From Paenibacillus sp. BIHB 4019 (GTDB lineage Bacteria; Bacillota; Bacilli; Paenibacillales; Paenibacillaceae): a stretch of DNA of 64,000 nt. Made by a program: the position numbers and the translations under genes. Location of the stretch: contig NZ_CP016808.1 of NCBI RefSeq assembly GCF_002741035.1, positions 2,005,001 through 2,069,000 of the forward strand, read 5' to 3'. Below are positions 43,818-59,929 of this stretch, in pieces; position 1 is the stretch's first letter; each line of letters begins with the position of its first letter. The notes under the pieces were generated by a model, which saw only the letters and a program-made list of their open reading frames with translations, was not told the origin of the DNA and made no database searches.

Positions 43818-44666
43818 TCAATCATGCTTCAGCAGCTCGGCAAGCTCGCGCTTTAAAGCTAAAAATGATTGGTGCTCACGCACTTCTGGCGAACGCTCCG
43901 CAGGCAAATTCACTTTAAATTGCTTTAAAATCCGCCCAGGGCCAGCCCCCATTACGACAATGCGCTGCGACAGAAAGATGGCTTCATCAATATCGTGCGT
44001 AATGAAAAGCACGGTCGTTTTCTCCTTTTGCCACACATCCAGCAGCATTTCCTGCATCTCCAGCTTCGTCTGGGCATCCAGCGCGCCAAATGGCTCATCC
44101 ATCAGCAGCACCTTCGGGCGATTGGCTAGCGCTCTGGCAATGGCTACCCGCTGCTTCATCCCTCCTGAAAGCTGCTTCGGATAAGACTTGTCGAACCGCT
44201 CAAGCCGGATAATTTTGAGCCAGTAGTTGGAGATGGAACGGCGGGCAAGCGTTGGTATCCCTTGCAGCTTGAGGCCATATTCGATGTTCTCACGCACCGT
44301 CAGCCACGGAAACAGCGTGTAGCCTTGAAAGACCATGCCCCGCTCGGCACCGGGTCCAACGATTTCTTCTCCATCCAAGGCAAGCATGCCGCTCGAAGGC
44401 TCATCAAGTCCGGCGACCATGCGAAGCAGCGTAGATTTGCCGCAGCCAGACGGGCCCAGTATCGTTAAAAACTCATTGGAGCCAATAGTGAGCTGAATAT
44501 CGCGCAGCGCTTCAAAGCTGCTTTTTTTCGTTTGGTATACCTTATGGAGATCGCGGATTTCGATCATTCCGCTGCCAGCTGCCGCTATGGCAGCTGGCTC
44601 GTTTTGCGCCAATACATTCTCCTCCGGCTGCTCTTTCTCTTTCGCTGTTAACGTCGCCATATTCAA
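43818..44666 (-). CDS. Nitrate/sulfonate/taurine-type ABC transporter ATPase, probably for guanidine uptake
   Basis: 282 residues with Walker A GPSGCGKSTLL, signature LSGGMKQRVAIARAL, Walker B VLLMDEPFGALDAQT and the H-loop ITHDIDEA. About 35 polar residues precede the domain. TTG start with GGAGG 9 nt upstream. The matching permease and binding protein are 10 kb away at 54.8-56.6 kb. All three units use the same nitrogen-box promoter design, so this is the likely ATPase partner. It has its own promoter after the allophanate hydrolase gene. Confidence 0.88.
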   Translation of the reverse strand: MNMATLTAKEKEQPEENVLAQNEPAAIAAAGSGMIEIRDLHKVYQTKKSSFEALRDIQLTIGSNEFLTILGPSGCGKSTLLRMVAGLDEPSSGMLALDGEEIVGPGAERGMVFQGYTLFPWLTVRENIEYGLKLQGIPTLARRSISNYWLKIIRLERFDKSYPKQLSGGMKQRVAIARALANRPKVLLMDEPFGALDAQTKLEMQEMLLDVWQKEKTTVLFITHDIDEAIFLSQRIVVMGAGPGRILKQFKVNLPAERSPEVREHQSFLALKRELAELLKHD

Positions 44667-44707
44667 ACGTGATCGCCTCCAAAAGCGTTCAATTTGCGCT
44701 GCCTAGT

Positions 44708-44729
44708 CTGCTTGCGAACCAGCAAGCAG
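44708..44729 (-). other. Leader hairpin of the ABC ATPase transcript
   Basis: CTGCTTGC-GAACCA-GCAAGCAG without a T-run, about 60 nt upstream of the start codon. There is no riboswitch in this leader, unlike in the two related operons. Confidence 0.5.
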
Positions 44730-44763
44730 ATCGGCATCGGATTTGACTAACTGCCGCCCAATT

Positions 44764-44842
44764 TGTCAGGTATCCTAACAATTTTAATAAGAATACCGCA
44801 AATTTTTACTGTTTGTCAATTTATATGTTAGGTTTATTTACA
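44764..44842 (-). promoter_or_regulatory. ATPase-gene promoter flanked by two GlnR/TnrA boxes
   Basis: Minus strand TTGACA (44819-44814), 18-nt spacer, TATTCT (44795-44790). Upstream box TGTTAGGTTTATTTACA (44826-44842) is 6 nt from the -35 and overlaps the end of the allophanate hydrolase gene. Downstream box TGTCAGGTATCCTAACA (44764-44780) is 9 nt after the -10. Both fit TGTNA-N7-TNACA exactly. Confidence 0.75.
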
Positions 44843-46664
44843 TTATACTTGTAGCCTGCTCATATTTTCGCCAGCCGCCATAAGCCGAAATTCGCTCCGC
44901 CCCTTCAAGAGCATAGCCTTCACAAATAAAGCCCGGCACCTCTTCTCCATGCTCCAGCTCCACTTTTCCTATGCCCAGTGGCGCCGGTATTAGAGCAGCA
45001 AACTCGCCGAAACGCGCTAGCGGCATTCGCCAAATCTCCAGCGCGACCGATACGCCACCTCGATCCAGCTTAATCATGCCAGGCTTTGCCGGCGTCGTAG
45101 GAAGCTTGATCAGCTCATATTTAGCCGCCGTGCTCGCTTCCCTGACAAAACTCGCTCCGAAAGCGTGCATTTGCCGCTCTAATGCGAATCCGCGCATATG
45201 GAGACCGCATACAGCGACTAACGTCGTCTGATCGGCGTCATTGGTTTCGGATAACACTTCTGCAACTGCTCCATTTTGGCTGCACTCCGCCCAGCCCGAT
45301 TGCCCAGACTCCATTGTCTGGTTGGCATACAGCCTTCCCAAGCCTTCAAGCAGATGCTCTTGATCCGCTAATGCGAACAGCGTTATGCCAAAAGGCAATC
45401 GCTCCGCTGCATCGCCCGAAGGAAGCGCCACTGCACTTAGATCAAGCAAATTGCAGTGGTTCGTATAAGCGCCCATTGCCGTATTCGTCTGTATAGGCTG
45501 CTCGCGCACCTGCTCACGCGTCCACGTTCCGCCTGAGGTAGGCATAACCAGCACCGCATCATCGAGCAGACTCTTTGCCGCCAGCTTGAAGGCTTGCAAG
45601 CGATGCATGGAAGCAAATACGGAAGCTGCCGTATGACGCTCGGCAGCTCCCGAACGAAGCACCTGCTCCGTTGCTGGCACCGTAGCCCCCGGGCGGCTTT
45701 CGATAAACTCGCCCAGATCAGCCCAGCGTTCTGCCACCCAAGGACCTTCATATAGCTCAGCTGCCGCTTCCGCGAACAAGCTGCAATCCACATTTTCAAT
45801 GGCAATCCCCAGCAATTGCAGCTGTTGCACGGAGGCATCCCACGCCTGAGCGTAATCTTCCGCAAACGGTCCAAAAAAAGCCGGACGCTCTAGCGGCAAA
45901 TACAGCTTGGACGGCAGGCCGCGAGCAGAGCGCGCAACCTCCCTTGACCATGGGTCAGCGGGATCAAGGCCGCGAGCGGAGCTGTCGACGGCGAGCGCAT
46001 CATCTATACTGTGGGCGAACACTGTCACACAGTCCAGGCTGGCGCAGGCGGGCACGACACCCTTGGTCGGCCACGCGCCAAGGGTCGGCTTATAGCCGAC
46101 AAGCCCATTCAGCGCGGCCGGCACGCGGCCGGAGCCGGCGGTGTCTGTGCCAAGCGAGAACACCGCTTGGCCGCGGGCAACAGCGACAGCCGAGCCGGAG
46201 CTGGAGCCGCCGCTGATCAGCTCGGGGCGCAAAGCATTGTGCGCCTCGCCGTAAGGGCTTCTCATGCCGACCAAGCCGGTGGCGAATTGGTCGAGGTTGG
46301 TTTTGCCCAGCGGGATGGCTCCCGCCCGAACTAAACGCTCCACTACAGTTGCGTTTTCTTCTGGAGTATAGGCAAATTCCGCACAAGCTGCCGTCGTTGG
46401 CAAGCCGGCAACGTCGATATTGTCCTTGATCGCGAAGGGGATACCCCAGAGCGGCGTTTTTGCTGGATCAAGCAGCGCGAGCCGCTCCAAATAAGGGCGC
46501 AGCCGCGCAAGCGCAGGCGGTGTAATCCAGATGTTCATTGCGGCATCCCGCTCGGAACGGCGGATGATTTCTTCAATAACCGCCTCAGGCGCCAGCTGCT
46601 TGGCGGCATATTTTTCACGCAGCCACTGCATGGTAATCACTTCAGGAAAAGTAACAGCCGTCAT
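44838..46664 (-). CDS. atzF: Allophanate hydrolase
   Basis: Hydrolyses allophanate to ammonia and carbon dioxide, the last step of guanidine or urea breakdown. The 608-residue product has an amidase-signature domain (about 1-450) with catalytic Lys in PFAIKDNIDVAG, the cis-Ser region SGGSSSGSAVAVA and nucleophile loop GTDTAGSGRVPA. A C-terminal domain (about 480-608) matches AtzF/DUR1-type proteins. It overlaps the carboxylase gene by 4 nt (ATGA). Confidence 0.95.
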   Translation of the reverse strand: MTAVTFPEVITMQWLREKYAAKQLAPEAVIEEIIRRSERDAAMNIWITPPALARLRPYLERLALLDPAKTPLWGIPFAIKDNIDVAGLPTTAACAEFAYTPEENATVVERLVRAGAIPLGKTNLDQFATGLVGMRSPYGEAHNALRPELISGGSSSGSAVAVARGQAVFSLGTDTAGSGRVPAALNGLVGYKPTLGAWPTKGVVPACASLDCVTVFAHSIDDALAVDSSARGLDPADPWSREVARSARGLPSKLYLPLERPAFFGPFAEDYAQAWDASVQQLQLLGIAIENVDCSLFAEAAAELYEGPWVAERWADLGEFIESRPGATVPATEQVLRSGAAERHTAASVFASMHRLQAFKLAAKSLLDDAVLVMPTSGGTWTREQVREQPIQTNTAMGAYTNHCNLLDLSAVALPSGDAAERLPFGITLFALADQEHLLEGLGRLYANQTMESGQSGWAECSQNGAVAEVLSETNDADQTTLVAVCGLHMRGFALERQMHAFGASFVREASTAAKYELIKLPTTPAKPGMIKLDRGGVSVALEIWRMPLARFGEFAALIPAPLGIGKVELEHGEEVPGFICEGYALEGAERISAYGGWRKYEQATSIM

Positions 46665-49600
46665 ACGAGCGACACCTCTTTCTGGATTTGCATAATGCCA
46701 GCAACAAGCTGGCCGGTATGAACCTCATCACCAGGCTTGACATAGATCGAAGCAACAACCCCGTCACAGGATGCCTGCTGGGAAAACTCCATTTTCATGC
46801 TTTCGACAATGATAAGCGTATCGCCCTTTTTCACCTGATCACCTGGACCTACGAGCACTTTCCAGACGCTTCCCGGCATATTGCAGCGAATGGCCTCCGC
46901 TCCCGCAGGAAGCTCCTCTTCTTCGCCTTGAGCCGCACCATCCTGCTCAGACACATATTCCGCAAGCCCAAGCGCCTTCCAGCTCTCGCGCTCTGCCTTG
47001 AACGCCGCCTGCTGGGTGTCGCGGAACGACGCCGCATCCTTTTCAATAGAAGCAAGAAACAGCAAATAGTCATTCAGTTTAAAGGCCGTCTCCGTAATTT
47101 CGACATCAAAGCGACCACGCGGGAAGTCCTCGCGCATCTTCAGCAGCTCATCCGCAGCAACGGGATAAAACTGAATTTGGTCAAAAAACCGCAGCAGCCA
47201 CGGCTTGCCCGCCGTGAAGCTCTTCGTCGCCTGCAGCTTATTCCACATTTGAATCGTGCGCCCAACAAATTGATAGCCGCCCGGCCCTTCCATGCCATAG
47301 ACGCACATGTAGGCTCCGCCAATTCCAACTGCATTTTCAGGCGTCCACGTCCGCGCCGGATTATATTTGGTCGTCACCAGACGATGCCGCGGATCAATGG
47401 GCGTAGCAACTGGCGCACCCAAGTACACATCTCCCAAACCTAGCACCAGATAACTGGCATCGAAAACAATTTGCCGCACAGCCTGCCTATCCTCCAAGCC
47501 ATTGATCCGGCGAATGAACTCTATATTGCTCGGGCACCACGGAGCATCCGGACGCACCGTTTGCTGATAGCGGTCTATCGCCAGCTGTGTGGACGGATCG
47601 TCCCATGACAGCGGAAGCCGCACAATTCGCGATGGAACTTCAATGGTCTCAAGCGGCGGCAGCAGGCTATCCAGCTCCAGCAAGCGGCGGCAAGCATCGC
47701 GGGCCGTAATGCGAGTGCGATCGATATGCACCTGCAGCGAGCGAATGCCCGGCGTAAGATCAAGCACCGGAAGCGAAGCATCCGCCCGTATGGCCTCCAT
47801 CAGCACATGCACCTGAAAACGGAGCAAAATGTCCAGCTTCAGCTCGCCATATTCCACGAGCAAATTCTCATCCCCGCTGCACCGAATAGCGATGGGAAAA
47901 CGCCGCCCCGCCTCCTCGCTGACGAGCAGCGGATAGGACGGCGAAAGCAGCTTCCCCCTAGGCTCAGGGAGCTTCAGCTCTTGAAGTGGCGCCATGTCGC
48001 CTTCGCCAAGCGCCAACAGATTAGCTTCCTGTGCTTCGCGCAGCACATCAGCCTCTTCAAGCGTCAATAGCTGAAAATAGACCTTGTCGCCGGGATGCAG
48101 CTGCCCCAGCTTCCAAAATTCGGCCGAAGCCGTCGTAACCGGACATACAAAACCGCCGAGGCTCGGGCCATCCGGCCCCAGCAGAATCGGCATATCGCCG
48201 GTCAAATCAAGCGTTCCCACAGCATAGGCATTGTCGTGAATATTAGAAGGATGCAGACCAGCCTCCCCGCCATCCTCTCTAGTCCAAAGCGGTGCCGGGC
48301 CAATTAAACGCACGCCTGTGCGGGAGCTGTTAAAGTGAACCTCCCACTGCGTTTCGGTTAACTGCTGCAAATATTCCGGCCGCAAAAATTCCTCTGTACA
48401 ATGCGGTCCCGGTATCACGCCGATTGTCCACTGCCCTGTAATGGCCGGACGGTACGCAGGAGCAAGCTCCTTCGCTAACGGTGCGGATAAAAAGTCTCGC
48501 GACAGCTCCGAATGTTGATCAGAGTCATGCGATAGCATGCCGCCAGCGCCGTGAACTCTCAGCACATCCCCAGCCCGCAGTGCCCGGCCGCCATGACCGC
48601 CAAAGCCGCCCAACGTAAACGTTGCAGCACTACCCAGAATAAGCGGCATATCCAGTCCGCCTGCAATTTGCAAATACGTCCGAAGCCCCGCCGCCGCCTC
48701 GCCGAAGCTGAGTACCTGTCCCGCTTTTGCTAGAATAGGCGCATACAGAGGAACAAGCTCGCCATCCAGCTTCGCTTGCATATCAGCGCCCGTCAGGCAA
48801 AACCGCATAGCAGCGCGGAATCGATAAGAACCGCCGCGCAATGTCAGCTCCAGGCCCGCTGCCTGATCCGAATTGCCGAGCAGCTTGTTGCCGAGACGGA
48901 AGGAGTAAGGGTCCATCGGTCCGCACGGCGGCACACCGACATCCCAATGCCCGACTCTTCCGGGCCAATCCTGCACCGTCGTCTGCACGCCGCCATCCAA
49001 TACCTCAATGGCTTGCTCCACTGGCGCAAAGCCCTCCAGCATCCGCGTATAAACAAGCCCCTCCTTGCAAGCTGCATCCTCAAGCAGCGCCTGCACATAT
49101 TGCAAATTCGTCGTCAGGCCGTACATCCGCGTCTGGGCCAGCGCCTCGCCCAATTTGCGCAAAGCATCGTCGCGATCCGTGCCGTGCACAATAATTTTCG
49201 CTAGCATCGGGTCATACAGCGTCGTAATGGTCATGCCGTCTCTCACCCATGTTTCATTGCGCGCCTGCTCTGAAAATCTCGCTTGATCCAGCTGCCCTGC
49301 ACTTGGACGGAAGCCCTGCAAGCAATCCTCAGCATAGATGCGGGCCTGAATGCTATGCCCCTGCGGCTTCCCCACCAGTGATTGCAGATCACGCAGATCG
49401 CCCGCCGCTTCCCGCACCATCCATTCCACCAGATCGAGGCCAAGCACCTCTTCCGTAACACCATGCTCTACCTGCAGCCGCGTGTTCACTTCCAGAAAAT
49501 AAAAAGCGGCCGTTTCCGGGTCATATAAATATTCCACCGTCCCCGCACTGCGGTAGCCCACTTCGGCAGCGAGCCTCGTTGCCGACTCCATCATGGCCTC

Positions 49601-50353
49601 GCGGACACTATCTGGCAAATGGGGCGCCGGACTTTCCTCCAGCACCTTCTGATTGCGCCGCTGCACGGAGCAATCCCGCTCACCGAGCGCAACAACCTCG
49701 CCATAGCTGTTGCCGAAAATCTGCACCTCGACATGGCGCGCCTTGGCGATGTATTTTTCCAAAAACATGCCGCCGTTCTTGAAATTCGTCTCCGCCAGAT
49801 GACGAACCCCCTCATAAGCAGCAAGCAACGCCTGCTCATCGCCACATACCCGCATGCCGATACCGCCGCCGCCTGCCGTGCTTTTCAAAATAACCGGATA
49901 TCCGATTTGCTCCGCACGCAGCGCCGCTTCTTCCACGCTGTCAATCAGTTCGGTTCCCGGCAGCATCGGAACACCCGCCCTTGACGCCAGCTCACGGGCT
50001 GAGTGCTTCAGCCCAAACTGCTCCATTTGCTCCGGGGTAGGGCCGATGAATACGATACCGCGCTCGGCGCAAGCACGGGCAAACTCTGCATTTTCACTCA
50101 AAAATCCATAGCCCGGATGAATCGCCTCCGCACCTGTTGCGATCGCCGTCTGAAGAATGAGCTCTGCATTCAAGTAGCTCTCTTTGGCGGGACCATCCCC
50201 AATCCATATCGCTTCGTCGGCATTATCGACATGTCTGCTGTCTTGATCAGCCTGCGTATAGACAGCCACAGATTGAATGCCCAGCTTGCGCAGCGTGCGC
50301 TCGATTCTTACGGCAATTGCGCCGCGATTAGCAATCAGTACCTTTGTAAACAT
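46661..50353 (-). CDS. Biotin-dependent guanidine/urea carboxylase
   Basis: Carboxylates its substrate with ATP and bicarbonate. About 1230 residues from [17 protein letters not shown] (GGGGAGAGG upstream). Order: biotin carboxylase (1-450: [41 protein letters not shown]), carboxyltransferase parts related to KipA (about 465-760: [24 protein letters not shown]) and KipI (about 825-1000), then a C-terminal biotinyl domain with VESMKMEF. Annotated families call this urea carboxylase. Together with the two associated proteins and a guanidine-I riboswitch, guanidine is the better-supported substrate. The substrate-selecting residue was not checked. Confidence 0.93.
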   Translation of the reverse strand: [1230 protein letters not shown]

Positions 50354-50375
50354 AGCGACCTCTCCCCGCATTTAT

Positions 50376-51026
50376 TTATTCATTCCAGATCAGCACCTGT
50401 ACAGGTGTTGGGTTATAGGCATTGCAAGGATTGTTCAGCTGCGGACAGTTGCTGATGAGCACCGTTGTCCTGCCGTGCGATTGCATCTCTACGTAATAGC
50501 CAGGCGCGGATACGCCGTCCGCAAACTGCAAGCCTCCTTCAGCGGTCACCGGCACATTCATGAAAAAATTCACGTTCGGCGCCAAATCGCGCTTTGTATA
50601 ATCCGCCTCCCGCTTCGACAGCTGGAGCATGAACGTATCGCGGCAGTTGTGCATATGCAGCTTTTCATGGGCATATCTCACCGTGTTGCTCTGGGCAGAG
50701 CAGGAGCCGCCAATCGTATCGTGGCGTCCGCATGTATCGGCAATGATTGTCACAAGCGGCTTGCCTGATTCCGCCCGCAGCACCGACCCCGCCGTTAAAT
50801 ACACATTCGCCTGCCCCGCAATCGTCGCGATGGCACTATAGTGATCTTCCGGCTGATCAGCGTCGTAAAAAAGCGTATCCGCCGCCTGATTGCCTTCCAG
50901 ATCGACAATTCTGAGCACTTGGCCAGGCAGCAGATCATGCATCCAGCCATCGCCTGCCAAAATCGTTTTACTATAAACAGCCTCCGCTACCTTACGCGGG
51001 CTTTCTATTAGATTAAATGCGGCCAT
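50376..51026 (-). CDS. Urea-amidolyase-associated protein 2 (carboxyguanidine deiminase subunit)
   Basis: 216 residues from MAAFNLIESPRKVAEAVY, after AGGAGG. DUF1989 family: LPGQVLRIVDLEGNQAADTLFYDA, DTCGRHDTIGGSCS, CRDTFMLQLSKREADY, NVNFFMNVPVTAEGGL. In characterised systems UAAP1 and UAAP2 together hydrolyse carboxyguanidine to allophanate and ammonia. It lies 22 nt before the carboxylase gene and 2 nt after its partner. Confidence 0.92.
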   Translation of the reverse strand: MAAFNLIESPRKVAEAVYSKTILAGDGWMHDLLPGQVLRIVDLEGNQAADTLFYDADQPEDHYSAIATIAGQANVYLTAGSVLRAESGKPLVTIIADTCGRHDTIGGSCSAQSNTVRYAHEKLHMHNCRDTFMLQLSKREADYTKRDLAPNVNFFMNVPVTAEGGLQFADGVSAPGYYVEMQSHGRTTVLISNCPQLNNPCNAYNPTPVQVLIWNE

Positions 51027-51028
51027 TA

Positions 51029-51754
51029 TTATTCGCCTCCTCGCAAAGCGTCGTATTCCCACGTATTTTCAAACGCACGGCGATTTTCCGCACGATAGTT
51101 CACACAGTAATCATGCTCCCGATCTACCGCTTCCGCAGCCAATACTTCAATCAGCACAGGAACCGATGGATAATCCCTTCTTGCATCGAGCGGGTTAGGC
51201 GTATTCGATAACACTAGCAGCACATCCATTTCCGTCCTAAGCGTTACAGCGCTGCCCGCCTGGCAATGATGCTCCGCATAATGCATATCACCCTGCTCGT
51301 CGCAGCTGATTTTGGAAAACCAATTGACGACCGGCATTAAATCTCTGACACCCATGCCGCTTCGCACGAGCTCCACCGCCAAATTTTCCTGCCCGCTTCG
51401 CAGCCAAGCGTTTCGAAGCTCCTGATAAGTCGTCGCGCCATAGCGCTCATCCGTCAGCTTGCGGCTTGTGTAGCCGCCAAGCGGATCATGCCAGCCCAGC
51501 TCATCTTCTACAATGCTGGCCATTGCGCGTCCATTGTCGCTCATCAACACATTCCCTTTGGTCAGATGTGAGGTATGCTGCGCCTTAAGGGTATCGGGCA
51601 TATTGTAGCGTTCATTCAGATCTGCGGCACTGAACAGCATGGCAGACACATTAGCCCCACCTTCAAGGGCAGTCAAACGAATGAGCTTCCCCCGTCCAAT
51701 AACGCCTGACCACTTGCCTCCAGCTTCAATTGTCTTGCTCCACCCTTTACTCAT
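51029..51754 (-). CDS. Urea-amidolyase-associated protein 1 (carboxyguanidine deiminase subunit)
   Basis: 241 residues from MSKGWSKTIEAGGKWSG; a GTG two codons earlier is possible. DUF1989 family, paralogous to the next gene: GKLIRLTALEGGANVSAMLFSAADLNERYN, SIVEDELGWHDPLGG, PVVNWFSKISCDEQGD. First gene of the carboxylase operon, directly downstream of a guanidine-I riboswitch and its terminator, with GGGGAGG as ribosome site. Confidence 0.92.
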   Translation of the reverse strand: MSKGWSKTIEAGGKWSGVIGRGKLIRLTALEGGANVSAMLFSAADLNERYNMPDTLKAQHTSHLTKGNVLMSDNGRAMASIVEDELGWHDPLGGYTSRKLTDERYGATTYQELRNAWLRSGQENLAVELVRSGMGVRDLMPVVNWFSKISCDEQGDMHYAEHHCQAGSAVTLRTEMDVLLVLSNTPNPLDARRDYPSVPVLIEVLAAEAVDREHDYCVNYRAENRRAFENTWEYDALRGGE

Positions 51755-51784
51755 TTCCACTCCGCCTCCCCGTGAATATAAATA

Positions 51785-51951
51785 AAAAAAGCCTGGGAGA
51801 TTGATCTCCCAGGCTTTTATCCTTCCGTGTTATACAGCGATTCGCGCCGCAGCGCTTATATTCGACTGTATGCCGTCTCTCGGACCAGGCTTAGCTTTCA
51901 TCAGATGAGGCACTCCCCATATGCAGCTAACGGAACCCTAGACAGCGGTTT
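51785..51951 (-). ncRNA. Guanidine-I (ykkC) riboswitch with terminator, carboxylase operon
   Basis: On the minus strand the conserved blocks appear in order: CTAGGGTTCCG, GGTCCGAGAGACGGC, and ACACGGAAGGATAAAAGCC. The last block runs into the terminator stem GCCTGGGAGATCAATCTCCC with a T-run (51787-51817). Guanidine binding is known to stop formation of this terminator, so the operon is switched on by guanidine. Confidence 0.93.
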
Positions 51952-51989
51952 GTTTCCAGTTTATTTAGCAACGGAAACCTATATTCAAT

Positions 51990-52067
51990 TGTCATATAAC
52001 CTAACATTAAATAGATTATATGACTGTTGAATATCATTTGTCAACGATTATGTTAGATAATATAACA
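51990..52067 (-). promoter_or_regulatory. Carboxylase-operon promoter flanked by two GlnR/TnrA boxes
   Basis: Minus strand TTGACA (52044-52039), 18-nt spacer, TATAAT (52020-52015). Upstream box TGTTAGATAATATAACA (52051-52067) is 6 nt from the -35, centred near -51. Downstream box TGTCATATAACCTAACA (51990-52006) is centred near +10. Both match TGTNA-N7-TNACA exactly. Confidence 0.8.
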
Positions 52068-52100
52068 TTTAATGCATCGCTATATAATCACATCAGCCCT

Positions 52101-52892
52101 CTACGGCATTGAGTATGCGTCTAATCGCTCCTCCTGGTTTAGCAAAATAGTCATCTTCTTGATTTTTCGCTCACTTGAAGCGAACCAATTTCGAACTTCT
52201 TCAAACCCCGCTTGAGATGATTGCAGATCAGCCGAAGCCATCCAAAATTGATCATTATCTACCCATTCGTAGTCAGGAATCGGCCAAGTTGGCGTGAACA
52301 TATACACTTTAGCCAGCTCCGCCCTCTCATAAGGAATGACCTTCATCCGCACCAAATCAACAGCAAACAAAACATGCCGAACAACCTGCCCGCCTTCATT
52401 GTAGCCAAATCGCAATAACAGCCTATTTTTCTCCGGTGAAAGCTTATAATCTTGAAAAATGCCATCCGCCAAGCCAACGCTCACAAGCCCGGAATTGCTT
52501 TCCTTCACCAAAATAGTCGAGCATTGCTTATTGGCACAATTGTACTTCAGCAAAATAAAACGTTCTTGATCCGCGATATCGAGCGTTTCCACTTGAGTTC
52601 GTTCGACTTCTTTTTCAATATCAGCAACATCAGCTTGCAAGCCCAAGTATTCCTTATAGAGCGGGATATCGCCAATAGCCAATTCCACCTTCTCGCCGTT
52701 AGCCCCTTCGACCACGAGCATCTCAGGCCCAACCTTCTTCACTTCCAAGCGAACCGAATCAGCCGCATCAGCACCAGCAGGAGCCTCCTTATGATTAGCC
52801 TTCAAGAAATAAACAGCCGCTGCTCCCGAGACAAATACAAATGCCATCACAATTACAAGCACCAGAGATGACCTCTGCCGCTTTTTGTTCAT
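52101..52892 (-). CDS. Membrane-anchored protein of unknown function
   Basis: 263 residues from ATG 52892 (GGGGGG 6 nt upstream; the longer frame lacks a ribosome site). A basic N-terminus and one membrane segment (about 9-29) are followed by an extracytoplasmic domain with a short coiled-coil-like stretch (LQADVADIEKEVERTQVE) and a Cys pair (KYNCANKQCSTI). No family is recognised. It is bounded upstream by a terminator and lies tail-first against the carboxylase promoter. Confidence 0.7.
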   Translation of the reverse strand: MNKKRQRSSLVLVIVMAFVFVSGAAAVYFLKANHKEAPAGADAADSVRLEVKKVGPEMLVVEGANGEKVELAIGDIPLYKEYLGLQADVADIEKEVERTQVETLDIADQERFILLKYNCANKQCSTILVKESNSGLVSVGLADGIFQDYKLSPEKNRLLLRFGYNEGGQVVRHVLFAVDLVRMKVIPYERAELAKVYMFTPTWPIPDYEWVDNDQFWMASADLQSSQAGFEEVRNWFASSERKIKKMTILLNQEERLDAYSMP

Positions 52893-53043
52893 TTTCATCC
52901 CCCCATCCGTCATACCACTAACCCTCACGCCTGCAACATACGTACTACTAGCTTTACAGTTAACGACGCTTCCTTCTATAAAAAAGTTACAAGGCAGCCG
53001 CGCTCGTTCAATGACCACTGACCCGTTGAACCACCCACCTCAA

Positions 53044-53096
53044 ACAAAACCAAACAGCAGCTTATCGTCCTTAGACGGCAGCTGCTGCTTGGTTTT
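53044..53096 (-). terminator. Intrinsic terminator of the SPFH-Arc operon
   Basis: On the minus strand AACCAAGCAGCAGCT ... AGCTGCTGTTTGGTT is followed by TTGTTT. Confidence 0.75.
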
Positions 53097-53133
53097 GCTC
53101 TTTCCTATAATTAGGCTCTCTATCTGCTTCTCT

Positions 53134-53334
53134 CTATTCCTTAGGCTCACCAGCATTTTCCGGAGGCTCGGCAGGTTTTGGCTTGGGTAGCCTGCCAGAG
53201 CGGCTGAGCGCCTCGCGCAGCAGAAACTCAATATGCCCATTAACGCTGCGAAATTCCTCATTAGCCCATTGCTCCAGAGCGCGGTGAATGTCAGGATTCA
53301 GTCGGAGCGGAAAAGCTTTCTTTTCTTTTCCCAT
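53134..53334 (-). CDS. Arc-type ribbon-helix-helix protein
   Basis: 66 residues: the RHH core FPLRLNPDIHRALEQWANEEFRSVNGHIEFLLREAL and a Pro/Glu-rich tail. Such small Arc-like proteins are often encoded directly after SPFH genes in Firmicutes. It starts 13 nt after the SPFH stop codon. Probably DNA-binding; the target is unknown. No toxin gene is adjacent, so a toxin-antitoxin role is not supported. Confidence 0.8.
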   Translation of the reverse strand: MGKEKKAFPLRLNPDIHRALEQWANEEFRSVNGHIEFLLREALSRSGRLPKPKPAEPPENAGEPKE

Positions 53335-53347
53335 TATCGACAGCTCC

Positions 53348-54220
53348 TTACGTGTACAAAGACCCGGTATTAATGACCGGAGTAGCAGAACGATCCGATA
53401 CGATCGCCACCATCAGATTGTTGACCATCGCCGCACGCCGCTCCACGTCCAGCTCAATTCCACTATCCTCCAATTGCTTCAACGCCGCGTCCACCATGCC
53501 AACTGCGCCTTCAACGATTTTCTGGCGAGCCGCCACAATCGCTGTCGCCTGCTGCCTTTGCAGCATAGCGCTAGCAATTTCCGGCGCATAGGCCAGATGC
53601 GTCAGCCGCGTCTCAATCACTTCAACTCCCGCAACAGCAAGCCTGCTTTGCAGCTCCTTGAGCAGCTCTTCAGCCACTTCCTCCGAATTGCCTCTGAGCG
53701 ACATCGCATTCTCATCCGTATGCGTATCATACGGGTGCTGCGCCGCCGTGTGGCGAACAGCCGTCTCGCTTTGGATTTCTACAAAACGCTCATAATTGTC
53801 GACATCGAAGCTGGCACGGGATGTATCCGTTACTTTAAATACAACAACCGCCCCAATTTCAATCGGATTTCCATCAGCATCATTGACTTTCAGCGTATGG
53901 CTGTTAAAGTTGCGCACTTTAAGCGACACCTTCTGCTTGTTCGTCAGCGGAAGCGTCATCCACAGCCCCGCATTTCTTACCGTACCGATATATTTTCCGA
54001 AAAAGGTGATGACCTTCGCTTCATTCGGCTGCACAATCGTCAGCGAGGAAGCCGCGATAATAAAAACAAGAATCAGCAGAGCACCTGCAATTATCAAAAG
54101 AAAGTCCGGCTGCGAGTCCGATGCGCCAAACACAATAAGAATGACTCCCCCAACAAGTGACAATATGCCAATGAGCAATGCTAAAAATCCATTCACATGC
54201 CAAGCTTTGTACTCCTTCAT
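53348..54220 (-). CDS. SPFH/Band 7 (stomatin-like) membrane protein
   Basis: 290 residues with two N-terminal hydrophobic segments (about 10-32 and 38-58), then an SPFH domain (about 65-250: [76 protein letters not shown] in pieces) with a C-terminal helical region. Family members scaffold membrane microdomains or bind proteases. Its relation to guanidine use is unclear; it may be a separate insertion. Confidence 0.88.
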
Positions 54221-54297
54221 CTGTCAGAACACCCCTTAGTATTAATTTGATATATTTATGATATCACTTTTTACATTTATATGCAAACCAGCGCACA

Positions 54298-54391
54298 CAG
54301 CTAAAGCCGTCCTCTGGCGGCAAAGCAGTCGTTTCGCGAAGAAATATAGAGAAAAGACGGAAAAATCATATACTTTCCTATAATTAAAAAA
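54298..54391 (+). repeat. Intergenic structured repeat (R10)
   Basis: Contains GCCGTCCTCTGGCGGCAAAG, CGTTTCGCG, GAAATATAGAGAAAAG and CTTTCCTATAATT. The A-run is the T-run of the terminator at 54386-54437. The remaining 54438-54795 stretch has no convincing gene; it has a short direct repeat of CGATCCC and a weak plus-strand frame. Confidence 0.7.
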
Positions 54392-54437
54392 AGGCCCGCA
54401 ATCCTAAGGGAACTCTCCCCATTAGACTGCGGGCCTT
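54386..54437 (-). terminator. Intrinsic terminator downstream of the guanidine ABC permease
   Basis: On the minus strand GGCCCGCA ... TGCGGGCC is followed by seven T residues. It lies about 360 nt after the permease stop codon, so the operon would have a long 3' UTR. Confidence 0.8.
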
Positions 54438-54795
54438 GCATAGCAGGCACTGCTATTCTTTTTTTCAACCAGAATTTGGACGCAAACGTGAACGTGATCT
54501 TGATTGTAAGCGCAAGCACGCCAGATCCCTATAACTTCCGATCCCGATCCCGCTCCAACGCTTCGCGTTCATCATTTCAGAAGTTCATGCCCTTCACCAA
54601 GGTAGACTTGGCGGTCACAATAGCAGCTATTTCAACAAAATCAAGGGTTAAGGACAGACAACGGACTCAGGAGCAGCTAATACACTCCCCCAGCCCCATT
54701 TTGACAGGATAATATAGGCGATAACGGATTCCCTGTCCGCTTACGGCCCGAAATCAGATCAAAAGCCAAAATAGCGGAACCTCCGTCCTCGAACG

Positions 54796-55605
54796 CTATA
54801 CCCAAGGAAATAATCTGCGGTTCAAAAAGGCAAAAATGCGGTCGCTAATCAAGCCCAGCAATCCGATGACGAAAATGCCAACAAAAATTTCCTCCGTATT
54901 CAAAAATCGCTGTGCCTTCATAATCGCATACCCCAGCCCGCTGTTGACCGCAACCAACTCCGCCACAACCAGATACGTCCACGCCCAGCCGAGAATAAGC
55001 CGCATCGTATGCATAAGCTGCGGTTGGATTGCTGGTATCAGCACCGTTTCAATCGCCTTCCAACGACCTGCTCCAAGCGTAAAGGAGGCTTGCAGCAAAT
55101 CTTGCGACACCCTGCGCGTATTGTCAGCTACCATCAGCACCAGCTGGAAGAAGCAGCCGATGAAAATAAGCAGCACCTTGGCCCATTCCCCAATCCCTGC
55201 CCATACCATAATAAGCGGAATGAAAGCGACCGCCGGCATATAGCGAATAAATTCCATCGGCGGCTCCACCAGCGCTTCGCCGAACTTGAACGTTCCAGCC
55301 AATATCCCAATGGGAATGCCTAATACACACGCCAACAGGAAACCCGACATCACGCGGAATAAGCTAACGCCAATATGGTTCCAATAATCAGAGCTGCCGA
55401 GCAGCTCTATAAAGGCAGCGAGAACGACATGCGGCTTCGGCAAAAATACAGGATTCACAGCCTCCGTATAGCTGAGCAGCGACCACAGCAGCAGAAGGAG
55501 CAGAAAAGAGCAGCTAGCGGTAATCGCAAACGCCCGGGACCCAATATCTTTAAAAATCTGTATCCGATGCGGCTTCCGCCGCCGAACTGCTTTCATCGCC
55601 ATCAC
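54796..55605 (-). CDS. Nitrate/sulfonate/taurine-type ABC transporter permease, probably for guanidine
   Basis: 269 residues with about six hydrophobic segments. The binding-protein-dependent transport motif is visible as EACFTLGAGRWKAIETVLIPAIQP-like ASFTLGAGRWKAIETVLIPA. It overlaps the binding-protein gene by 4 nt; the start could be GTG 55605 or an ATG at 55602 or 55596. The ATPase partner is missing from this operon and is most likely the gene at 43.8 kb. Confidence 0.9.
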   Translation of the reverse strand: MMAMKAVRRRKPHRIQIFKDIGSRAFAITASCSFLLLLLLWSLLSYTEAVNPVFLPKPHVVLAAFIELLGSSDYWNHIGVSLFRVMSGFLLACVLGIPIGILAGTFKFGEALVEPPMEFIRYMPAVAFIPLIMVWAGIGEWAKVLLIFIGCFFQLVLMVADNTRRVSQDLLQASFTLGAGRWKAIETVLIPAIQPQLMHTMRLILGWAWTYLVVAELVAVNSGLGYAIMKAQRFLNTEEIFVGIFVIGLLGLISDRIFAFLNRRLFPWV

Positions 55606-56618
55606 TTCCCTGCTGTTGTATTTTTGATGAATTGCGCGTCGAACAACCCGCTCACGTCATCAATGTCACCGACCATATCAAGTCCGCGCAAGAAATCCGC
55701 CGTCTGCCCCGCCGTATATTCAAGCGAGGTATATTCATCACGCTTCTCGAAGGCATGGAGATTATCCGCTTGCGAGAACAGCTTGATGCCGTCAAATCCA
55801 AGCTTGAGATCCTCCGGGGTCGTCTCCGCCTTAGCCGCGAGCAGCTTCAGCACCTCTTCCTGATTGGCTTCATAATACGCAAGCGCATCGAACCAAGCAT
55901 CCACCACCTTCTGCACTTCAGCGGAACGCTTCTGCACGACCTCTTCACGGAACACAAGCAGATCCGGAATAAGCCCCGGCGTATCCTTAGAGGAGAACAA
56001 CACCTTGCCCTTGCCTTCTTTCACCGCAATTGTCTGGAACGGCTCCCATAGAACAGAAGCATCAGACTTTCCGGAAATAAAAGCAGGGCCCGCATCATTC
56101 ACCGTCATATTGACGTAGTTCACATCTTCTTCCTTCATGCCATTTTGCGCCAAGGCAGTCAGCAGCAGCAAATGATCGACAGTTCCAAGCTCCGTCGCAA
56201 CCGTTTTTCCCTTTAAATCCTCAATCGACTGAATTTCCGGTTTGCTGACAATAGCATCGCCGCCAAAAGAATTGTCATTTACCAAAACCGCTTTAAGCGG
56301 AATTCCTTTTGAAAAAGGAGCAAGCGTATCGCTCAGCGTCTGGCTGTTCGCATCGACTCTCCCCGTTGCCAAAGCTTGAAGCGAGTCGCTGTATACCGGG
56401 AAAAACTCCAGCTTGACGTTAACGCCATGCTTTTCAAAAAAACCTTTTTCCTCTGCTACATACCACATATACCAGCCCGGCCACGGGCTTAGGGCAATCG
56501 TGATCGGCTCCCCCGCCCCTCCTTCCTCCGCTTTGCCACCTGAATTGCTGCAACCCGACACAACAAACACCGACACGACAAGCAACCCTAAGAGCCAAAC
56601 CTTCCACGACTGTCTCAT
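55602..56618 (-). CDS. ABC transporter substrate-binding lipoprotein (NMT1/taurine type), probably for guanidine
   Basis: 338 residues. Lipoprotein signal VWLLGLLVVSVFVVSGC, then the periplasmic-binding fold: ITIALSPWPGWYMWYVAEEKGFF, VDANSQTLSDTLAPFSKG, VATELGTVDHLLLLTAL and ASVLWEPFQTIAVKEGKG. Many members of this cluster are controlled by guanidine-I riboswitches, and here one lies 158 nt upstream. This makes guanidine or a close relative the likely ligand. Confidence 0.9.
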   Translation of the reverse strand: MRQSWKVWLLGLLVVSVFVVSGCSNSGGKAEEGGAGEPITIALSPWPGWYMWYVAEEKGFFEKHGVNVKLEFFPVYSDSLQALATGRVDANSQTLSDTLAPFSKGIPLKAVLVNDNSFGGDAIVSKPEIQSIEDLKGKTVATELGTVDHLLLLTALAQNGMKEEDVNYVNMTVNDAGPAFISGKSDASVLWEPFQTIAVKEGKGKVLFSSKDTPGLIPDLLVFREEVVQKRSAEVQKVVDAWFDALAYYEANQEEVLKLLAAKAETTPEDLKLGFDGIKLFSQADNLHAFEKRDEYTSLEYTAGQTADFLRGLDMVGDIDDVSGLFDAQFIKNTTAGK

Positions 56619-56670
56619 TGTCCCACCCCTTGTTTTTATAGCTCCAGCCCTTGAATAACGGGAGATTGAG

Positions 56671-56779
56671 CCAAGTGTAAACAGCTGTCGCTGTCCTCTG
56701 GCAGCAAAGCTGCCGTTTCGAGGGCGAAATATAAAAATGTATAAGTATGTAACTCATACTTTTTTATATTTCTAAAAAA
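56671..56779 (+). repeat. Intergenic structured repeat (R11)
   Basis: Starts AAGTGTAAACAGCTGTCGC; the inner stem has changed to GCTG ... CAGC, keeping pairing. Hairpin 2 is GAAATATAAAAA, AGTATG, CATACT, TTTTTATATTTC. It lies between the riboswitch terminator and the binding-protein gene, i.e. inside the 5' leader. Confidence 0.75.
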
Positions 56780-56945
56780 ACAAAAGCCCGGGAGATTGTG
56801 ATCTCCCAGGCTTTTATCCTTCCGTGTTATACAGCGGTTGCCGTCATCTCTCAATGGATGCACACTCGCCGTACGCCGTCTCTTGGACCAGGCTTGATAA
56901 GGCGCAAGCGCGCTTGCGACCTGTCAACGGAACCCTAGACAGCTT
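56776..56945 (-). ncRNA. Guanidine-I (ykkC) riboswitch with terminator, transporter operon
   Basis: On the minus strand CTAGGGTTCCG, then GCCTGGTCCAAGAGACGGC, then ACACGGAAGGATAAAAGCC, which passes into the stem GCCTGGGAGATCACAATCTC with CCGGGC and a T-run. Same architecture as the copy at 51.8 kb, with a longer variable arm (GTCGCAAGCGCGCTTGCG). Confidence 0.93.
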
Positions 56946-56991
56946 GTCGTTCCCGATGTGTACAGCCAGCATAGGAACCATATTTTCTTTT

Positions 56992-57072
56992 TGTTAGAAT
57001 ACCTTACATTTATCTGTATTATAGTAGGCCATCCAACATTCTGTCAATACTCATGTCATGTTAATTTACGTT
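56992..57072 (-). promoter_or_regulatory. Transporter-operon promoter flanked by two GlnR/TnrA boxes
   Basis: Minus strand TTGACA (57049-57044), 18-nt spacer, TATAAT (57025-57020). Upstream box TGTCATGTTAATTTACG (57056-57072) has one mismatch at the end and lies 6 nt from the -35. Downstream box TGTTAGAATACCTTACA (56992-57008) is exact. Confidence 0.78.
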
Positions 57073-57095: not shown

Positions 57096-58271
57096 TTATG
57101 CAGCAGCTTTCACCGTAGTATTTTCCGGCACTTCCAGCGCTCCGTAAGTAGTGAACCATTTTTGCATAGTTGGGAAATCGCTTGTGTAAGTCAGAGTCAG
57201 CATAAGCAGAATACGAGCGTGAGACGCATTCAAATTATCCCCTGCCAAAATCCCATCGCTGCCGCCGTAAATGTTGCCCGATCCGGTTCTTGTCGTTGTT
57301 ACAAAAACAACGCCCTTCTCAATCGCCTTCGTACGCTCTTCTCTCATTGCAGCGGAAATGCCGCCAGCTCCTGTACCCGCTGTTACAATCCCTTTTGCCC
57401 CGCCGTCTACGAAGCCTTTAATCGCCTCGCCGCCAGCTCCTTGATACGAATAAGCAATTTCAACCTTCGAGAAGCCGGCCTTCGGCAGCTTGGACAGATC
57501 AAACGGCGTCACCCACTCTGCATCGGTTTTCAGCGCTCTTGTCGGCACGCGGTAAATTTGAATAATTGATTCATCAATGTAGCCCAGCGGGCCAAATCCT
57601 GGCGACTCGAATGTATCAAGACGCAGCGCGTTTGTTTTCGTCACTTCGCGCACAGCATGAATCTCATCATTCAGCATGAGCACGGTGCCGAATTTCTTCG
57701 TCTTGCCGCTTGCTGCCAGCTTGATCGCATTAAACAAGTTCGCCGGAGCATCGCTTCCGATTACTGTCCATGGACGCATAGAGCCTGTAATAACAACCGG
57801 CTTCGAGCTGCGAACCGTAAGATCGAGGAAATAACCGATCTCCTCCATCGTATCTGTACCCGTCGTAACGACTACACCGTCATATTTCTTCAACGCTGCA
57901 TCCACTGTCATCGACAGGCTTGCCAAGTCGTCCATCAGATAAGCCGATGAGCCTTTGTTGCCAAATTGCACAGTCTCAACGTCCGCCATCTTATCCAGAT
58001 TCGGCAGGCTCTTCACCATATCTTTAATTAAAAGCGTACCCGCACGGTACGTTTGAAAGCTTGTCTCATCCGTTGATTGTCCAGCAATCGTGCCGCCTGT
58101 ACCAATAACCAGAATGTTAGGGAGCTTCGATTTCTGGAAGGAAGCAGGCACCTCAGGGAAAGCAATTGCCTGGATAGCAGCCTCAGCGGCTCCTACAGGA
58201 GAAATAAATGTTACGAGTGCGATAATGGCAGAAAGCGAAAAAACAGTCATCCTTTTAATAGACAGCATCAT
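57096..58271 (-). CDS. Secreted L-asparaginase, copy 1
   Basis: Hydrolyses asparagine to aspartate and ammonia outside the membrane. 391 residues from MMLSIKRMTV (GGAGGG upstream, in line with copy 2). Signal peptide to about residue 29, then the type II asparaginase fold: first catalytic Thr in GTGGTIAG (Thr61), second motif TGTD (137-140), and ITGSMRPW. Copy 2 differs at only 8 positions by direct comparison. A perfect GlnR/TnrA-like box lies upstream. Confidence 0.94.
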   Translation of the reverse strand: MMLSIKRMTVFSLSAIIALVTFISPVGAAEAAIQAIAFPEVPASFQKSKLPNILVIGTGGTIAGQSTDETSFQTYRAGTLLIKDMVKSLPNLDKMADVETVQFGNKGSSAYLMDDLASLSMTVDAALKKYDGVVVTTGTDTMEEIGYFLDLTVRSSKPVVITGSMRPWTVIGSDAPANLFNAIKLAASGKTKKFGTVLMLNDEIHAVREVTKTNALRLDTFESPGFGPLGYIDESIIQIYRVPTRALKTDAEWVTPFDLSKLPKAGFSKVEIAYSYQGAGGEAIKGFVDGGAKGIVTAGTGAGGISAAMREERTKAIEKGVVFVTTTRTGSGNIYGGSDGILAGDNLNASHARILLMLTLTYTSDFPTMQKWFTTYGALEVPENTTVKAAA

Positions 58272-58307
58272 CTTGGTTCCCTCCACTTAACTATAATATA
58301 ATCTCTA

Positions 58308-58379
58308 TTGCGTTATATTATCTCACACAATTAAATCAAACAAGTGACTTTATACCTAGTTATGTAAGAATAGCTGACA
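58308..58379 (-). promoter_or_regulatory. Putative nitrogen-regulated promoter of asparaginase copy 1
   Basis: Box TGTAAGAATAGCTGACA (58363-58379) fits TGTNA-N7-TNACA exactly. A weaker box (58311-58327, last base mismatched on the minus strand) overlaps the likely -10 TAATAT (58320-58315); a possible -35 is TTGTTT (58343-58338). Confidence 0.5.
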
Positions 58380-58446: not shown

Positions 58447-58566
58447 TTATATTTCTAAAAAAAACAAAAGCCCGGGAGATTGTGATCTCCCAGGCTTTCA
58501 TCCTTCCGTGTTATACAGCGGTTGCCGCCAGCTCTCAATGGATGCACGCTTACCGTACGCCGTCTC
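58447..58566 (-). pseudogene. Truncated guanidine-I riboswitch (3' half only)
   Basis: Matches the transporter riboswitch from the A-run and terminator through ACACGGAAGG to GAGACGGCG, then stops and is joined directly to the stop codon of asparaginase copy 2. The 5' half with CTAGGGTTCCG is missing, so it cannot form the aptamer. The terminator hairpin is intact and probably ends the copy 2 transcript. Confidence 0.85.
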
Positions 58567-59742
58567 TTATGCAGCAGCTTTCACCGTAGTATTTTCCGGC
58601 ACTTCCAGCGCTCCGTAAGTAGCGAACCATTTTTGCATAGTCGGGAAATCGCTTGTGTAAGTCAGAGTCAGCATAAGCAGAATACGAGCGTGAGCCGCAT
58701 TCAAATTATCCCCTGCCAAAATCCCATCGCTGCCGCCGTAAATATTGCCCGATCCGGTTCTTGTCGTTGTTACAAAAACAACGCCCTTCTCAATCGCCTT
58801 CGTACGCTCTTCTCTCATTGCAGCGGAAATACCGCCAGCTCCTGTACCCGCTGTAACAATCCCTTTTGCCCCGCCGTCTACGAAGCCTTTAATCGCCTCG
58901 CCGCCAGCTCCTTGATACGAATAAGCAATTTCAACCTTCGAGAAGCCGGCCTTCGGCAGCTTGGACAGATCAAACGGCGTCACCCACTCTGCATCGGTTT
59001 TCAGCGCTCTTGTCGGCACGCGGTAAATTTGAATAATTGATTCATCAATGTAGCCCAGCGGGCCAAATCCTGGCGATTCAAATGTGTCGAGACGCATTGC
59101 ATTTGCTTTCGTCACTTCGCGCACAGCATGAATCTCATCATTCAGCATGAGCACGGTGCCGAATTTCTCCGTCTTGCCGCTTGCTGCCAGCTTGATCGCA
59201 TTAAACAGGTTCGCTGGAGCATCGCTTCCGATTACTGTCCATGGACGCATAGAGCCTGTAATGACAACCGGCTTCGAGCTGCGAACTGTAAGATCGAGGA
59301 AATAACCGATTTCCTCCATCGTATCTGTACCTGTCGTAACGACTACACCGTCATATTTCTTCAACGCTGCATCCACTGTCATCGACAGGCTTGCCAAGTC
59401 ATCCATCAGATAAGCCGATGAGTCTTTGTTGCCAAACTGCACAGTCTCAACGTCTGCCATCTTATCCAGATTCGGCAGGCTTTTCACCATGTCTTTAATT
59501 AACAGCGTACCCGCACGGTACGTTTGAAAGCTTGTCTCATCCGTTGATTGTCCAGCAATCGTGCCGCCTGTACCAATAACCAGAATGTTAGGGAGCTTCG
59601 ATTTTTGAAAGGAAGCAGGCACCTCAGGGAAAGCAATTGCCTGAATAGCAGCCTCAGCGGCCCCTGCTGGAGAAATGAATGTTACGAGTGCAACAATGGC
59701 AGAAAGCGAAAAAACAGTCATCCTTTTAATAGATAGCATCAT
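58567..59742 (-). CDS. Secreted L-asparaginase, copy 2
   Basis: 391 residues, same domain layout, signal peptide and catalytic motifs as copy 1 (GTGGTIAG, TGTD). The differences are conservative (for example G/D after FGNK, T/A before NA(L/M)RLD). Start ATG 59742 after GGAGGG. The upstream nitrogen box of copy 1 is degraded here (TATAAGAGTAACTAGCA), so the two copies may be expressed under different conditions. Confidence 0.94.
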   Translation of the reverse strand: MMLSIKRMTVFSLSAIVALVTFISPAGAAEAAIQAIAFPEVPASFQKSKLPNILVIGTGGTIAGQSTDETSFQTYRAGTLLIKDMVKSLPNLDKMADVETVQFGNKDSSAYLMDDLASLSMTVDAALKKYDGVVVTTGTDTMEEIGYFLDLTVRSSKPVVITGSMRPWTVIGSDAPANLFNAIKLAASGKTEKFGTVLMLNDEIHAVREVTKANAMRLDTFESPGFGPLGYIDESIIQIYRVPTRALKTDAEWVTPFDLSKLPKAGFSKVEIAYSYQGAGGEAIKGFVDGGAKGIVTAGTGAGGISAAMREERTKAIEKGVVFVTTTRTGSGNIYGGSDGILAGDNLNAAHARILLMLTLTYTSDFPTMQKWFATYGALEVPENTTVKAAA

Positions 59743-59894
59743 ATCGAATCCCTCCAGTTAACTATAACGCAGTCATTATTGTATTATACTACCTCATATG
59801 TATATATTTAACAAGATATTTTATAAGAGTAACTAGCATTCATTTTATGATAATGTCATAGGTTCTATTGAAGCAGCCTGTACCTGTGCAAGCA

Positions 59895-59927
59895 TTGACA
59901 AAATAATTTTAGTGCTATACAGTACTA
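59895..59927 (+). promoter_or_regulatory. tetR promoter with overlapping operator
   Basis: TTGACA (59895-59900), 17-nt spacer, TACAGT (59918-59923). The near-palindrome TAGTGCTATACAGTACTA (59910-59927) covers the -10. The predicted start falls at or next to the ATG at 59930. Confidence 0.7.
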
Positions 59928-59929
59928 AT

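Follow-up and report, generated by a model that had tools for sequence, protein, structure and literature searches.

Predicted dual GlnR boxes and guanidine-I riboswitches suggest two-key control of a guanidine assimilation locus in Paenibacillus sp. BIHB 4019

Introduction

In Bacillus subtilis, promoters activated by TnrA carry a binding box centred near −50, and the leader of the ilv-leu operon contains a T-box as its RNA sensor. The consensus of the TnrA/GlnR box, TGTNA-N7-TNACA, is cited in PMC9948412. Paenibacillus polymyxa WLY78 lacks tnrA, and its GlnR both activates and represses the nif genes through flanking sites (PMC9948412, PMC6191146); in the available part of the latter source, the upstream site is described as activating and the downstream site as repressing. 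Operons for guanidine carboxylase are known to combine the guanidine-I (ykkC) riboswitch class with genes for carboxylase, deiminase and allophanate hydrolase and with ABC or APC importers (PMC12186494, PMC11410670). Here we describe a guanidine degradation locus in a 64,000-nucleotide stretch of the Paenibacillus sp. BIHB 4019 genome (contig NZ_CP016808.1, positions 2,005,001 to 2,069,000; hereafter the window). Three of its promoters are flanked by GlnR-type boxes, and two of these are followed by guanidine-I riboswitches.

Results

The three promoters, at 44.8, 52.0 and 57.0 kb of the window, all lie on the minus strand, as do the features given for them below, and share one order of elements: a box, 6 bp, the −35 hexamer TTGACA, an 18-bp spacer, a −10 hexamer, 8-9 bp and a second box. 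Boxes were defined by the 17-bp GlnR/TnrA consensus, which has eight fixed letters. In the 57.0-kb promoter, predicted box 1 (57054-57070) has one mismatch (CGTAAATTAACATGACA) and ends 6 bp before the −35 (57047-57042) of the core promoter (57018-57047; −10 TATAAT at 57023-57018), while the predicted box 2 (56992-57008) is exact and begins 9 bp after the −10. The 52.0-kb core promoter (52015-52044; −35 at 52044-52039, −10 TATAAT at 52020-52015) lies between two exact predicted boxes, with box 1 (52051-52067) 6 bp before the −35 and box 2 (51990-52006) 8 bp after the −10. At 44.8 kb, the core promoter (44790-44819; −35 at 44819-44814) has the −10 TATTCT (44795-44790), and both predicted boxes are again exact; box 1 (44826-44842) overlaps the stop codon of the allophanate hydrolase gene and box 2 (44764-44780) follows the −10 after 9 bp. 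From start to start, the two boxes are 62, 61 and 62 bp apart at 44.8, 52.0 and 57.0 kb, respectively. An earlier note on this DNA had proposed this triple dual-box geometry, with five exact boxes out of six, and it is read as such on the minus strand; the distance between the −10 and box 2, put there at 8-11 bp, narrows to 8, 9 and 9 bp. With the start site placed about 7 bp past the −10, an assumption on which all positions relative to +1 depend, box 1 would be centred near −51 and box 2 would cover about +3 to +19.

Full-length guanidine-I aptamers (RF00442, model positions 1-107, conserved core kept) were found in two of the three leaders, as had been claimed. They are located at 56801-56949 (70.1 bits) behind the 57.0-kb promoter and at 51804-51952 (73.2 bits) behind the 52.0-kb promoter, both above the Rfam gathering score of 63, and both are predicted to bind guanidine. 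As read from the coordinates, an intrinsic terminator with a U-tract overlaps the 3′ end of each aptamer (56774-56814, −22.9 kcal/mol; 51781-51817, −22.4 kcal/mol). The region that contains the 44.8-kb leader (44400-45000) matched no Rfam family at E-values up to 1. A third guanidine-I riboswitch of the genome (L087, 5660703-5660806) heads a different ABC importer, and its leader has one exact box that overlaps the likely −10.

The 57.0-kb promoter and its riboswitch precede genes for an ABC substrate-binding protein (55602-56618; SsuA family, with a weaker match to a putative urea type) and an ABC permease (54796-55605). Behind the 52.0-kb promoter and its riboswitch follow UAAP1 (51029-51760) and UAAP2 (50376-51062), both of the DUF1989 family, a carboxylase of the urea-carboxylase family (46661-50371) and allophanate hydrolase (44838-46664). 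An ABC ATPase gene (43818-44666) stands behind the 44.8-kb promoter. These genes were assigned by family matches. UAAP1 and UAAP2 we take to be the subunits of carboxyguanidine deiminase. The carboxylase (1236 aa) matches urea carboxylase at 1735 bits, yet has an Asp at position 722, which aligns with Asn1330 of the Kluyveromyces lactis enzyme. Since an Asp at this position marks guanidine carboxylases (PMC11410670, PMC12186494), the operon encodes the guanidine carboxylase pathway, and with UAAP1, UAAP2, carboxylase and allophanate hydrolase the pathway set is complete, in agreement with the guanidine degradation locus of the earlier note. From their context, the binding protein and permease are probable components of a guanidine importer, and the ATPase probably belongs to this importer at 54.8-56.6 kb.

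The boxes are strongly concentrated at the locus. In the whole genome (7,246,671 bases) we counted 95 exact boxes, compared to 56 exact matches of a reversed-pattern control. Between 44764 and 58379 (13.6 kb), about 0.18 exact boxes were expected and six were seen, namely the five promoter boxes and one at 58363. A box followed by N6-TTGACA with at most one mismatch occurs at three sites genome-wide, which are exactly these three promoters; the design is therefore limited to guanidine genes in this genome. The remaining 63 of the 66 matches to this pattern have two mismatches, and the reversed control gave 35 in total. Dual boxes 62 bp apart with up to two mismatches were found at four genomic sites, compared to one in the control. 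At 61 bp there is no excess by count (one site, two in the control), and the sole genomic site is the exact 52.0-kb pair.

We also considered whether GlnR uses the dual-box design more generally in this genome. This was rejected, as a 62-bp pair with a single mismatch was found at only one other site. That pair precedes the gene for an ANTAR-domain protein (L089, genome 324679-324757); a further 62-bp pair, with two mismatches, lies at genome position 5947845 near a MarR-type gene.

Within the genus, guanidine-I riboswitches are present in 45 of 51 genomes, this one included. All 103 were taken with their upstream sequence, one of them with just 347 nt. When one mismatch was allowed, paired boxes were found in 16 of 16 leaders of ABC binding proteins. 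The ATPase homologue is preceded by boxes and a guanidine-I riboswitch in 11 leaders, ten of which belong to the paired class, and the eleventh (G037) has two boxes farther upstream. In the two nearest relatives (L044, L047), the ATPase promoter likewise has two exact boxes and no riboswitch, while two other species (L033, L034) have boxes and a riboswitch at the corresponding position. In three more species (L046, L110, L132) the ATPase gene follows within the operon, and box and riboswitch are absent just upstream. Overall, the motif scan that the earlier note had suggested finds the layout confined to the locus in this genome and the boxes conserved in related strains, across the genus and beyond.

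The same riboswitch class heads assimilation, import and efflux genes, and the leaders of these groups were compared for an exact box within 150 nt upstream. To the genus leaders we added 80 named loci from a scan of genome contigs (the best 80 of 587 relatives). A motif finder, which recovered 103 of 103 Infernal riboswitch matches, found riboswitches in 68 of these loci (108 leaders) and none in 12. After 17 of 211 leaders had been dropped for an identical 120-nt upstream sequence, the first set comprised 194 leaders. Of the 163 leaders of assimilation or import genes, 140 had an exact box, compared to none of 30 SMR efflux leaders (Fisher p 4.8e-21). By class, exact boxes were found for UAAP1 (65/85), APC permease (43/44), ABC binding protein (17/18), ATPase (10/11) and other ABC binding proteins (5/5), and not for the unclassified leader (0/1). 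A single exact match to the reversed pattern was seen in the 194 leaders, and shuffles did not exceed 0.5 in any class; when one mismatch was allowed, 1 of 30 SMR efflux leaders had a box, with 2 for the reversed pattern. APC and SMR identities were assigned by Pfam for five representatives and by tblastn for the others.

A later, family-wide set was drawn from 118 genomes, of which 90 had a match. It yielded 125 loci and 112 new leaders, after 19 leaders already in the first set had been removed and five weak family-search rows (E 1.7e-7 to 9.8e-5) had been left out; as removal was by identical sequence, its species may overlap with those of the named loci. Here exact boxes were found in 36 of 39 assimilation or import leaders, none of 58 efflux leaders (p 1.8e-23) and 3 of 15 unclassified ones. 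When a single mismatch was tolerated, boxes appeared in 6 of the 58 efflux leaders, and the reversed pattern gave 5. Leaders with no recognised downstream gene (one in the first set, 15 in the later one) stood outside the comparison. Pooled over both sets, an exact box is carried by 176 of the 202 leaders of assimilation or import genes and by 0 of the 88 efflux leaders, counts that are not independent and are inflated, since the species are related. A riboswitch match was obtained in 16 of 19 genera of the family sample, and the named loci span Bacillaceae and Clostridia besides Paenibacillaceae. The data support that the boxes go with guanidine assimilation and not with guanidine riboswitches per se. 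A number of low-scoring guanidine-I matches (L308, L311, L312, L315, L316, L318, L319, L321-L324) are box-less and precede genes that our queries did not recognise; these are possibly ykkC-like riboswitches for other ligands.

The split between assimilation and efflux is difficult to explain if the boxes were a chance product of AT-rich background with no regulatory role. It is true that the consensus has eight fixed letters and that 14.6 sites with at most one mismatch were expected in the window, where 25 were found. In addition, the later set had exact reversed-pattern matches in 5 of its 19 binding-protein leaders and in 1 of 57 for SMR1, and none in the remaining classes. However, the near absence of control matches in the first set and the conserved spacing and information content described below argue against chance, an explanation that is strongly disfavoured and in our view very improbable.

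The flanking promoters are conserved in a pattern that follows the predicted elements. Among 40 counted box pairs the spacing is 62 bp in 26 and 61 bp in 8. For 29 promoters with 62-bp boxes, reduced to 23 by an 85% identity cut, the mean information was 1.90 bits for box 1 and 1.86 bits for box 2 at consensus positions, 1.74 bits for the −35 and 1.76 bits for the −10, compared to 0.80 bits for the 6-bp linker, 0.97 bits between the −10 and box 2 and 0.57 bits for the 18-bp spacer. As the rows were selected for boxes, the box values are raised, and the informative features are the poor conservation of the 18-bp spacer and the constant box spacing. The first letter of box 2 departs consistently from the consensus, with C instead of T in 17 of the 23. 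The −35 of the Paenibacillus flanking promoters is consensus or one-off, and the −10 is TATAAT, TATACT or TATTCT.

With regard to the regulator, the genome encodes a single GlnR (138 aa), and three queries found no TnrA; the TnrA query matched this GlnR at 55 bits and gave three further hits of at most 25.5 bits. The regulator is therefore most likely GlnR, so that of the TnrA/GlnR control put forward previously, the GlnR part has its gene here and the TnrA part has none that these queries detect. TnrA-like matches of 70-101 bits occur in 9 of 19 typed Paenibacillaceae genomes, and TnrA presence and promoter wiring are thus not cleanly linked. In the genus, a short TnrA-like protein scoring at least 100 bits was found in 22 of 51 genomes, but not in this one. 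These short proteins (L180-L193, L195-L198) end soon after the DNA-binding domain and apparently lack the C-terminal region, which in B. subtilis TnrA senses glutamine synthetase.

The position of the boxes differs between families. We typed 35 of 36 genomes for TnrA and compared a Bacillaceae group of 16 genomes (TnrA at 124 bits or more) with 18 Paenibacillaceae genomes, allowing one mismatch and separating distal from proximal boxes at −77, a cut-off set after inspection of the data. The 26 Bacillaceae leaders had distal boxes only in 23 cases, distal and proximal boxes in 2 and none in 1, whereas the 23 Paenibacillaceae leaders had distal boxes only in 2, both in 13, proximal boxes only in 8 and no case without a box (p 1.5e-9); since TnrA presence largely coincides with family, its effect is inseparable from ancestry in this contrast. 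For exact boxes only, a proximal box was found in 1 of 26 Bacillaceae and 15 of 23 Paenibacillaceae leaders (p 5e-6). Most Paenibacillaceae leaders have a box that is closer to the riboswitch and lies either at the promoter or beyond it. In the Bacillaceae leaders inspected, some from two genomes without TnrA typing, the box is 6-7 bp before a −35 that looks poor by eye, which fits activation. In other Paenibacillaceae, a box over the −35 together with a downstream box was called in 10 of 85 UAAP1 leaders, and a box over the −10 in 29 of 85 UAAP1 and 24 of 44 APC leaders; these promoter calls were automatic, are biased towards promoters close to a box and come from mixed families. Within the genus, a short TnrA-like protein was tallied in 14 of 14 genomes with other layouts and 7 of 17 with the flanking layout (one at 74 bits; p 0.0005), an exploratory count made by hand and confounded by phylogeny, on which we do not lean.

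Together, these data point to two-key control at 52.0 and 57.0 kb, in which initiation would be gated by GlnR and elongation by guanidine, and we hold this reading to be quite probable. GlnR would bind the two boxes that flank the promoter, with box 1 at the classical TnrA-type activating position around −51 and box 2 where a bound protein would block RNA polymerase. If box 1 activates and box 2 blocks, initiation would be permitted only under nitrogen shortage, as we propose. In the 52.0- and 57.0-kb leaders, the transcript would then halt at the terminator unless guanidine occupies the aptamer, and full transcription would therefore need nitrogen limitation and guanidine. The AND logic of the earlier note is thus the preferred reading where a leader has a riboswitch, as two do, but it fails at 44.8 kb, because that leader has no riboswitch. 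The ATPase promoter would respond to the nitrogen key alone, and transcripts reading through from the guanidine-gated operon could provide an additional, guanidine-dependent supply. The efflux genes of relatives would have the riboswitch key without the nitrogen key.

Besides the relatedness of the species and the reversed-pattern matches in binding-protein leaders, several points weigh against this reading. In the first set, 23 of 163 assimilation or import leaders have no exact box, and 6 of 29 UAAP1 leaders of the genus have no box at one mismatch. These six riboswitches sit downstream of same-strand importer genes whose leader does carry boxes, so they may serve as second guanidine checkpoints inside a longer transcript. 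The −35 of the three promoters is consensus and the −10 is TATAAT in two of them, so that an activator is possibly not needed. The box positions in other Paenibacillaceae suggest repression. Finally, the published GlnR map of P. polymyxa, in the part available, has 17 targets and none of them is a guanidine gene, a count made with the presence of the locus in that strain unchecked. Even so, nitrogen gating of these promoters is likely.

How the gate would work is less clear-cut, and activation from box 1 and pure repression by both boxes appear about equally plausible. In the latter case, GlnR with feedback-inhibited glutamine synthetase would bind both boxes in nitrogen excess, perhaps cooperatively, given their spacing of 61-62 bp or about six helical turns, and a shortage of nitrogen would relieve repression. 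The two-key output would be the same with no activation involved. The consensus −35 and the mostly TATAAT or TATACT −10 of the flanking design, the tightly kept box spacing and the called boxes over −35 or −10 in other Paenibacillaceae are in line with such double repression. On the other hand, the offset between box 1 and −35 is the same as in the Bacillaceae leaders, whose −35s look weak and activator-dependent by eye, and GlnR of P. polymyxa is reported to activate nif from an upstream site (PMC6191146). We regard double repression as possible, if somewhat doubtful. The activation claimed for box 1 hence agrees with its position near −51 and is not established, given the consensus −35 and the boxes of relatives over −35 and −10.

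A strict AND may also not apply at all, if the riboswitch dominates and GlnR merely tunes the maximum level a few-fold. Notable basal activity is suggested by the consensus −35, and as guanidine is toxic, expression in rich nitrogen could help the cell. This is however difficult to reconcile with the efflux genes, which handle toxicity and have no boxes, and the conservation of two boxes at each promoter points to strong control. We consider such tuning unlikely and favour the two-key reading.

The neighbourhood of the locus contains further genes. Between the two riboswitch operons lie an open reading frame without Pfam or NCBIfam match (52101-53018) and a gene for a Band-7 protein (53348-54220); relatives of both occur in the two nearest species, at 97-98% for Band-7. 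Upstream, a type II asparaginase is present as a tandem duplicate on the minus strand (57096-58286 and 58567-59742), with 98% identity over 391 aa, and the two nearest relatives had a single copy in the stretches examined. A truncated guanidine-I riboswitch (58485-58570, 25.7 bits) and a terminator lie between the copies, apparently as a remnant left by the duplication. One copy keeps two GlnR boxes (58311-58379) at a spacing of 52, which is kept in two relatives. The 260 nt upstream of the other copy (59743-60002) have no box at one mismatch, which suggests that nitrogen control of this copy was lost after the duplication.

Discussion

Across Bacilli, our comparison suggests that genes for guanidine assimilation and import are under nitrogen control and efflux genes with the same riboswitch are kept free of it, while the wiring of this control may have diverged. 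TnrA-bearing Bacillaceae would use an upstream activator box with a weak −35, whereas in Paenibacillaceae, many without a full TnrA, boxes would have been added or moved to repressing positions, giving a dual-site or repressed promoter with the same AND output. We are evenly divided over this scenario. Since the same RNA sensor has a nitrogen gate for consumption and import and not for export, the leaders argue on genetic grounds that these bacteria use free guanidine as a source of nitrogen, apart from its role as a toxin. Moreover, the locus offers a compact natural promoter for studying how one GlnR could both allow and block transcription, and a comparison of Bacillaceae with Paenibacillaceae provides an example of rewired regulation.

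In the full-text literature searched, judged by titles and abstract openings, we found no description of a GlnR/TnrA box combined with a guanidine riboswitch; most subscription papers lie outside that literature, and a cyanobacterial precedent for nitrogen and guanidine is possible. The terms urea carboxylase and allophanate are absent from the main text of a GlnR regulon study in Bacilli (PMC3412718). The guanidine-I carboxylase operons share the riboswitch class, the enzymes and the importers with our locus, and the available parts of PMC12186494 and PMC11410670 do not mention nitrogen-control promoters for them; nitrogen limitation, nitrogen starvation, NtcA and NtrC are absent as terms from the main text of the former.

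The TnrA-activated promoters of B. subtilis resemble the guanidine promoters in having a TGTNA-N7-TNACA box at a sigma-A promoter; unlike them, the guanidine promoters have a second box around +10 and, in two leaders, a riboswitch. The ilv-leu operon (PMC12452182) likewise joins TnrA, together with CcpA, at the promoter to an RNA sensor in the leader, but it serves branched-chain amino acid biosynthesis and has no catabolic two-key design. A further likeness is to the nif promoter of P. polymyxa WLY78, a GlnR-only organism in which two GlnR sites flank one promoter (PMC6191146). The nif-like two-site design proposed in the earlier note is therefore shared in principle and differs in spacing. 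In nif, the two sites are 118 bp apart, with site I 58 bp upstream of the −35 and site II 24 bp downstream of the start, and the available part of that source mentions no riboswitch, whereas the boxes of the guanidine promoters lie 6 bp before the −35 and 8-9 bp after the −10, 61-62 bp from start to start, and two of the leaders carry a riboswitch.

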